NCBI RefSeq assembly: GCF_017744835.1
Contig: NZ_JAGIAM010000001.1
Location: 806,001 to 870,000, forward strand
DNA length: 64,000 nt
From: Sphingomonas sp.
GTDB lineage: Bacteria > Pseudomonadota > Alphaproteobacteria > Sphingomonadales > Sphingomonadaceae
Direction: 5' to 3'
How positions within the stretch are numbered: position 1 is the stretch's first letter; every line of letters begins with the position of its first letter. The notes under the pieces were generated by a model. The model was not told where the DNA came from. It did not search any database and was given only the letters and a program-made list of their open reading frames with translations. Below, one piece after another: positions 13,803-37,244 of the stretch. The translations under genes and the position numbers were made by a program.

Positions 13803-13931
13803 CTCCCCTCCCTGAAAGGGAGGGGTTGGGGGTGGGTGCGCGGTGCAGCCGCGCTCGTTCGTTCGCCGTTGAAGTGCCGGACGGGGCATCGAGCCCCGAT
13901 CGACACTGGACCCATCCTTTCAGGGAAGGGA
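13803..13931. repeat. Multi-hairpin repeat element, copy A
   Basis: A 129-bp GC-rich element. The left hairpin is CCCCTCCCT-GAA-AGGGAGGGG (13805-13825, 9-bp stem). The middle hairpin is CGGGGC-ATCGA-GCCCCG (13882-13898). The right end, TCCTTTCAGGGAAGGGA, pairs less well. The first 40 bases are almost identical to the element at 35874-36024, and both copies have an internal hairpin with the same ATCGA loop. It fills the gap between M28 copies 2 and 3 and reaches the first hydrophobic codons of copy 3. I cannot assign it to a named repeat family. Confidence 0.75.
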
Positions 13932-21404: not shown

Positions 21405-22370
21405 ATGGTGAGCACCCGATTCGCGCCCAGCCCCACCGGCCGGCTTCACCTCGGCCATGCCTGGTCCGCGATCCAGGCGCACGACTATGCCCGAACGCGC
21501 GGCGGGCGCTTCCTGCTCCGCATCGAGGATATCGACGGCACGCGCAGCCGGGCCGAGCATGTCGAGGCGATCCTGCGCGACCTCGAATGGCTGGGGCTCC
21601 GCTGGGACGGCGAGGTCGTGTTCCAGTCGCAGCGGCTGGGCCTCTACGAGGCCGCGCTCGACCGGCTGCGCGACATGGGGCTGATCTACCCCTGTTTCTG
21701 CACCCGCGCGGACATCGCCGCGAGCCTCAGCGCCCCGCACGGGCCCGCGGGCGCGCTCTATCCGGGGACGTGCCGCGGGCTCGAAGCCCCCGATCTTTCG
21801 CGCCCGCACAGCTGGCGGCTCGACGTGGCGAAAGCGCTAGCTTCACTCCCTCTCCCCGCCGGGGAGAGGGCAGGGGCCCGCGCCGAAGGCGTGGGAAGGG
21901 AGAGGGGCAGTGCCGAGCCAAGTGCCCCTCTCCCTTCCGCCGCTTCGCGGCTCCCTCCCTCTCCCCGGCGGGGAGAGGGATTGTTCTGGCACGACGACTT
22001 CGCCGGCTGGGTCCGCGCCGACCCGCTGTCGCACGGTGACGTGATCCTCGCCCGCAAGGACGCCCCCGCGTCCTATCACCTCGCCGTGACCGTCGACGAC
22101 GCGGCGCAGGGCATCACCCATGTCGTGCGCGGCATGGACCTGTTCGCCGCGACGCACGTCCACCGCCTGCTCCAGGCGCTGCTCGGCCTGTCGACCCCCT
22201 GCTACCGCCACCACGCGCTGCTCATGGGCCCGGACGACCAGCGGCTCGCCAAGCGCCACGGCGCGCCGACGCTCGAGGCGCTGCGGCTCGCCGGCGAGGA
22301 CGGCCGCGCGCTCGCCGATCGCCTGCGCGCCGGCCAGCTCCCGGTTGGCTTCGCCTCGGCAAAGGCGTAA
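21405..22370 (+). CDS. gluQ: Glutamyl-Q tRNA(Asp) synthetase with an in-frame repeat insert
   Basis: 321 residues. It charges the queuosine base at position 34 of tRNA(Asp) with glutamate. The class I HIGH-type motif is SPTGRLHLGHA (9-19). Zinc ligands are C97, C99, Y119 and C123 in CFCTR and YPGTCRG. The KMSKS equivalent is LAKRHG (281-286). The anticodon-binding domain of GluRS is absent, as is normal. Residues 148-192 (exactly 45 codons) are encoded by a GC-rich multi-hairpin repeat and have no counterpart in the family; they sit in a loop between WRLDVAKAL and FWHDDFAG. Flanking sequence is uninterrupted, so the enzyme may still work. Confidence 0.88.
   Translation: MVSTRFAPSPTGRLHLGHAWSAIQAHDYARTRGGRFLLRIEDIDGTRSRAEHVEAILRDLEWLGLRWDGEVVFQSQRLGLYEAALDRLRDMGLIYPCFCTRADIAASLSAPHGPAGALYPGTCRGLEAPDLSRPHSWRLDVAKALASLPLPAGERAGARAEGVGRERGSAEPSAPLPSAASRLPPSPRRGEGLFWHDDFAGWVRADPLSHGDVILARKDAPASYHLAVTVDDAAQGITHVVRGMDLFAATHVHRLLQALLGLSTPCYRHHALLMGPDDQRLAKRHGAPTLEALRLAGEDGRALADRLRAGQLPVGFASAKA
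21846..21980. repeat. Composite palindromic repeat inside gluQRS
   Basis: 135 bp built of nested hairpins. Each end has a CCCTCTCCCC/GGGGAGAGGG stem (left loop GCC, right loop GGC). In the centre, AAGGGAGAGGGGCA (21896-21909) pairs perfectly with TGCCCCTCTCCCTT (21923-21936). Smaller hairpins are GCC-GAA-GGC on the left and GCCGC-TTC-GCGGC on the right, so the whole element is roughly symmetrical. It has no stop in the reading frame used by gluQRS and its length is divisible by three. Confidence 0.85.
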
Positions 22371-37069: not shown

Positions 37070-37144
37070 AGGGCGGGGTGTCTAGCGCCGTCCGTGTTCG
37101 GCGTCGAGGCGGGTTGCCTCCCTCTCCTCCGGCTCCCACTCTTT

Positions 37145-37227
37145 CGTCATCCCCGCGAAGGCGGGGACCCAGGAATCACGAGCGATGTCCGCTGTGGCTC
37201 TGGCTCCCCGCCTTCGCGGGGATGACG
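37145..37227. repeat. 23-bp perfect inverted repeat (REP-like pair)
   Basis: The left arm (37145-37167) starts CGTCATCCCCGCGAAGGCGG, and the right arm (37205-37227) is its exact reverse complement, with a 37-base spacer. Each arm also folds on itself (CCCCGC-GAAG-GCGGGG). The arm resembles short palindromic units dispersed in many proteobacterial genomes. It lies just after the HerA-like gene, upstream of the GT2 gene. A single-arm relative lies at 59653-59670. Confidence 0.8.
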
Positions 37228-37244
37228 ATATGGTTATGCGGAGG

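Follow-up and report, generated by a model that had tools for sequence, protein, structure and literature searches.

A dispersed palindromic repeat in frame within gluQRS of a sphingomonad, and several repeat families in the same loop of its relatives

The RPE of Rickettsia are described as palindromic repeats of ~150 bp that fall into ten families, with 44 integrations in R. conorii, many of them in frame and in unrelated genes (PMC10969869). Intragenic GTAG/CGTC REPs have been reported from the tRNA synthetases of the sphingomonads E. litoralis and S. alaskensis and from RNA helicases of O. terrae, and the recB genes of two Xanthomonas have REPs that differ from each other but occupy roughly the same site (PMC3733652). 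The CGTC REPs are defined in that account by an unpaired tag (CGTC, TGTC or CCTC), a stem that starts with A-T pairs and a CCA tail (PMC3733652); the words glutamyl and glycyl are absent from its main text. The enterobacterial RU are characterized as MITE-like small mobile repeats of 103-168 bp that have open frames and occur inside genes (PMC2759123). A search of the open-licence literature found no report of insertions or palindromes in GluQRS or glyS.

The stretch of DNA analysed here (the window) comprises 64,000 nucleotides of a Sphingomonas genome and holds a composite palindrome in frame within gluQRS. A first-pass annotation likened it to the coding palindromes of Rickettsia, and this resemblance is supported in that a repeated palindrome lies in frame inside conserved genes, a likeness of arrangement. 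Unlike the RPE as described, the elements reported here occur in free-living sphingomonads, place several families at nearly identical codons of a single gene across species, and show turnover and a scar. The RU belong to another host group and are likened by description rather than by sequence. Inserts found in gluQRS were sorted by eye into families A (the window type), B, C, E, F, G, H and I. A location within genes is shared with the published account of intragenic REPs, and the F and G inserts start with CGTC. Four inserts (L166, L170, L174 and L178) resemble CGTC REPs in that each is an inverted dimer with CGTC at its two outer ends. Family A differs from the CGTC REPs as defined there and is a larger composite of five hairpins: in the window and in the other full copies there is no tag, the stem starts with C and there is no CCA tail. 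Families B, C and E, and the family S introduced below, appear similar by eye. Elsewhere in the window, a CGTC-type REP dimer with 29-nt arms (97% complementary) lies at 37144-37228 and is crossed by two mechanical ORFs, and a palindrome resembling the E family, TCCCCTCCCTGAAAGGGAGGGG, lies at 13804-13931.

The host gene occupies 21405-22370 on the forward strand and encodes 321 amino acids plus a stop. Its proposed identity as GluQRS is borne out by a match above cut-off to NCBIfam NF004315 (tRNA glutamyl-Q(34) synthetase; E 1.6e-95), and 1nzj and 4a91 are relatives in the PDB. The element spans 21846-21980, that is, 135 bp or 45 codons without a stop, corresponding to residues 148-192; reading of the sequence, shuffling and folding scores all agree with the in-frame palindrome first noticed there. 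Folding exceeds that of shuffled sequences as DNA (z -9.0) and as RNA (z -10.1), and none of 200 shuffles equals it in either case. The layout of family A consists of two end hairpins, two small hairpins and a central stem. The end hairpins, H1 (21848-21870) and H5 (21957-21979), each have a 10-bp perfect stem and a 3-base loop, as originally described, whereas the central stem, first given as 14 bp, reads as 16 bp of perfect pairing between 21894-21909 and 21923-21938. H2 (21877-21895) has an 8-bp stem that includes one G-T pair, has a GAA loop and can form in place of part of the central stem, and H4 (21939-21951) has a 5-bp stem. The ends of the element also pair with each other through 35-nt arms that are 89% complementary, and arms of 21 nt form a second inverted repeat. 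The 35-nt inverted repeat ranks first among the best 25 of 68 in the window, and the element thus carries the terminal inverted repeats used as a criterion for MITEs. In the AF2 model the insert is without confident predicted structure, with pLDDT below 50 at residues 153-186 and 188-190.

The window's own genome (G000; 3.9 Mb in 8 contigs) contains further copies, as the first-pass annotation had anticipated: 35 BLAST matches were found with strands counted separately and 40 of 65 first-look candidates scored. These matches comprise 10 full and 2 partial places of family A. Family S, a sister of A, has 6 full places and 3 partial ones, and a further palindrome, R, has 5 full places and 1 partial one. 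Four of these 27 places lie within conserved genes, namely gluQRS (A), glyS (S and R) and hrpB (S), and in each of the four the flanks on both sides have coding composition and belong to one frame and one protein family. Among the other 23 places, several start a few bases past the point where a long mechanical ORF stops. Other long ORFs across copies were considered as hosts and set aside as mostly chance-like frames in high-G+C DNA. A Pfam scan covering a subset of the element-crossing ORFs (20 chosen plus 5 more) gave matches on both sides of the element for glyS and hrpB only, and on one side only for MoaC, DUF559 and a 4HBT thioesterase. The Y1 (RAYT) transposase was rejected as the mover, as PF01797 has no match in G000 and is present in 33 of 295 genus genomes. 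No clear target-site duplication was seen by eye in the element copies or in pairs of filled and empty sites.

The two further host genes show a similar arrangement. In glyS (glycyl-tRNA synthetase beta), two different in-frame palindromes lie ~810 bp apart (L244, G000:C5:43680-43786; L263, G000:C5:42786-42872). The S element covers roughly residues 378-413 of the open frame, with R further on, and the S residues fall inside 373-416, a segment that does not align to the solved GlyS chain 7yse. The counterpart of glyS is essential in E. coli. Among the best 120 GlyS relatives, all 115 that were readable have element-type peptides at this position by eye, of at least five kinds (judged from proteins only), a count biased toward filled loops because the search words were taken from the insert region. 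In hrpB (ATP-dependent helicase), the in-frame S palindrome (L274, G000:C1:1129558-1129655) sits between the helicase and C-terminal parts. HrpB relatives have varied palindromes, with several peptide kinds, in the same loop, and 9 of the 28 loops read (of 30, G000 included) out-fold all other windows sampled from their gene.

The comparison of GluQRS covered 61 genomes, 80 named loci and 295 genus genomes. In the genus, 286 of the 295 genomes have a GluQRS match at E 1e-50, and in 42 of these one continuous match spans the insert site. This is a lower bound, since only 55 (26 + 29) of the remaining 244 genomes were read as DNA and the continuous-match search favours in-frame inserts, so that frame-broken cases may be missed. 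Two of the 55 are frame-broken at the site, G262 (L179) with an insert and G026 (L037) without a full insert. Most of the GluQRS compared are without the loop, in line with the original expectation that relatives would lack it and against the loop being widespread. After removal of duplicates, 159 gluQRS rows remained, with 42 distinct inserts at this site ranging from 78 to 201 bp. The inserts were cut at codon limits, and lengths in multiples of three are therefore no evidence. Four Sphingobium rows have other extra stretches a few residues beyond the site. In L163 and L165 the inserts reach ~200 bp, and a further stretch seems to be nested within the element with the frame kept. Two loci, L080 and L081, are titled Bacillus sp. 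and Microvirga sp., yet their gluQRS is of the Sphingomonas type.

At the protein level, 78 of the best 120 GluQRS proteins listed carry an insert (77 by script and P0069 by eye, with 2 of the 120 unparsed by the script). Among the other 42, a pattern test finds the usual loop in 3, and many of the rest keep element-like ends by eye. A search with words from the insert peptide only, covering proteins of about 177-561 aa, returned 8 proteins at E <=1 among 274 candidates, and all of them are GluQRS, including the window's own. One pair of DNA sequences provides a scar, in which L183 retains the two edges of the L033 element but lacks its middle, with the frame preserved.

The inserts and the enzyme around them change in different ways. 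Across seven non-overlapping pairs, changes at codon positions 1/2/3 number 42/48/59 in the inserts, which does not depart from an even distribution (p 0.22). Elsewhere in gluQRS they number 204/166/621, a pattern that differs from that of the insert (p 1.4e-7). Three of ten pairs were dropped because rows were reused, and they have the same pattern (7/9/7, 3/8/8 and 5/11/10). Even changes within the insert and a third-position bias elsewhere point to an enzyme that is kept and a peptide that is free to change. Same-family inserts are possibly non-orthologous, so the test carries less weight for pairs from families A, B and C. Pairs from E (2/6/5) and F (4/5/9) give the cleanest comparison, but they are few. 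Part of the even pattern may have arisen outside gluQRS. The hairpins are kept. All but two of the 42 inserts (the exceptions being L164 and L175) out-fold every sampled window of the same length in their own gene. In 8 of the 14 B inserts (6 were omitted as unlike in length or layout), pairing holds in 93% of cells, and both partners have changed in 8 pairs, a number that 0 of 500 shuffles reach, with the pairing structure drawn from those same sequences.

Such paired changes, which preserve hairpins, could suggest that the insert is useful, with an mRNA hairpin pacing translation or a loop altering tRNA binding, and the presence of three RNA-related enzymes as hosts in one genome would fit this idea. 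The paired changes are also expected, however, if a genomic pool replaces the copies. The free drift of the amino acids also speaks against a useful insert, as does the filling of the same place by different families and the many relatives that have no insert. A useful insert is therefore considered unlikely, and the evidence instead favours an in-frame repeat that is tolerated by the host gene, as initially suggested.

Somewhat less probable again is a single ancient in-frame insertion into gluQRS that diverged by mutation only, without later arrivals or overwriting. The A, B and C inserts mostly share start and end codons and reading frame, and a single clade (97*) contains 8 of the 9 inserts in an initial tree, as a single event would predict. 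Inserts of the E, F and H families, in contrast, occupy the same loop in other clades, beside insert-free rows. A tree of 131 rows built without the insert columns (50 of its 128 inner branches with support below 80) requires at least 30 changes of family label and a minimum of 16 between presence and absence, and the 33 A, B or C rows alone require a minimum of 11. Changes forced by the starred branches alone number 6 for B, 4 for A and 4 for C. Family A as a single clade is rejected (p-AU 0.009, with the groups named once the tree was known), while E and F each form a single clade. Close relatives can hold different families, as with L143 (C) and L147 (A), which are joined with support 94.

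Similarity to copies elsewhere in the same genomes bears on the same question. Searches of 10 carrier genomes gave 34 to 92 matches per genome for inserts of families B, C, E and F, with strands counted separately. In G258, the C insert shares 92% identity with a copy elsewhere in that genome, as against 81% with the gluQRS insert of G244 and 79% with that of G314, and the B insert of G131 shares 87% with an own copy, as against 83% with the gluQRS insert of G065. Both are thus nearer to copies elsewhere than to their gluQRS counterparts, which a single ancient insertion would not predict. The F inserts are closest to one another (87%, versus 83% for the best own copy), and the E inserts are equally close to each other (93% over 121) and to their own copy (93% over 111). 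For the window insert, identity is 86% to the insert of strain HITSZ_GF and 82% to the best own copy. On these sequence comparisons, inheritance of inserts occurs as well, which speaks against general overwriting.

By analogy with the yeast mitochondria, where hairpins are bypassed in translation, the element might be skipped as the gene is read, and strong hairpins within an open gene are what such skipping would involve. This seems very improbable: 42 genes are open in one frame over the insert, which skipping would not need, and stops occur in 43 of 126 frames of 21 copies in G000. The open-frame argument is weaker than it appears, since the search favours in-frame cases. An assembly or annotation artefact, for which no supporting evidence was found, can practically be dismissed, as the same loop is filled in 42 genus genomes and in 78 of the best 120 GluQRS proteins.

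The 135-bp palindrome is thus very probably a copy of a dispersed family lying in the gluQRS frame and likely translated as a tolerated, predicted disordered loop of 45 residues; we infer both the translation of the insert and the mobility of the element. The presence of different repeats at the same spot in relatives suggests that the repeats likely add a loose loop that is tolerated. One course of events that would lead to this situation begins with elements arriving, as mobile or recombined DNA, wherever possible. Selection would then remove copies that shift the frame, add a stop or damage the fold, and the survivors would hence collect in the few loops able to accept extra residues. A resident element could subsequently be overwritten by members of the family through recombination between similar end hairpins, and later deletions may shorten it. 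A broader and more tentative proposal, for which we would not yet claim even odds, is that a few loops of core RNA enzymes (GluQRS, GlyS and HrpB) are reusable docking sites where rival selfish families land and overwrite one another, which would give sphingomonads fast-changing, translated, disordered loops within enzymes that are otherwise conserved.

What is new here is that several families use the same loops repeatedly, together with the turnover, the scar and the codon-position test. If the proposal holds, selfish palindromes would enter proteins repeatedly and at the same loops in free-living bacteria, rather than as rare accidents. The sphingomonads offer hundreds of genomes, with close relatives whose alleles are filled, empty or scarred, and such alleles make the origin, spread and loss of coding palindromes directly testable, in glyS as well as in gluQRS.
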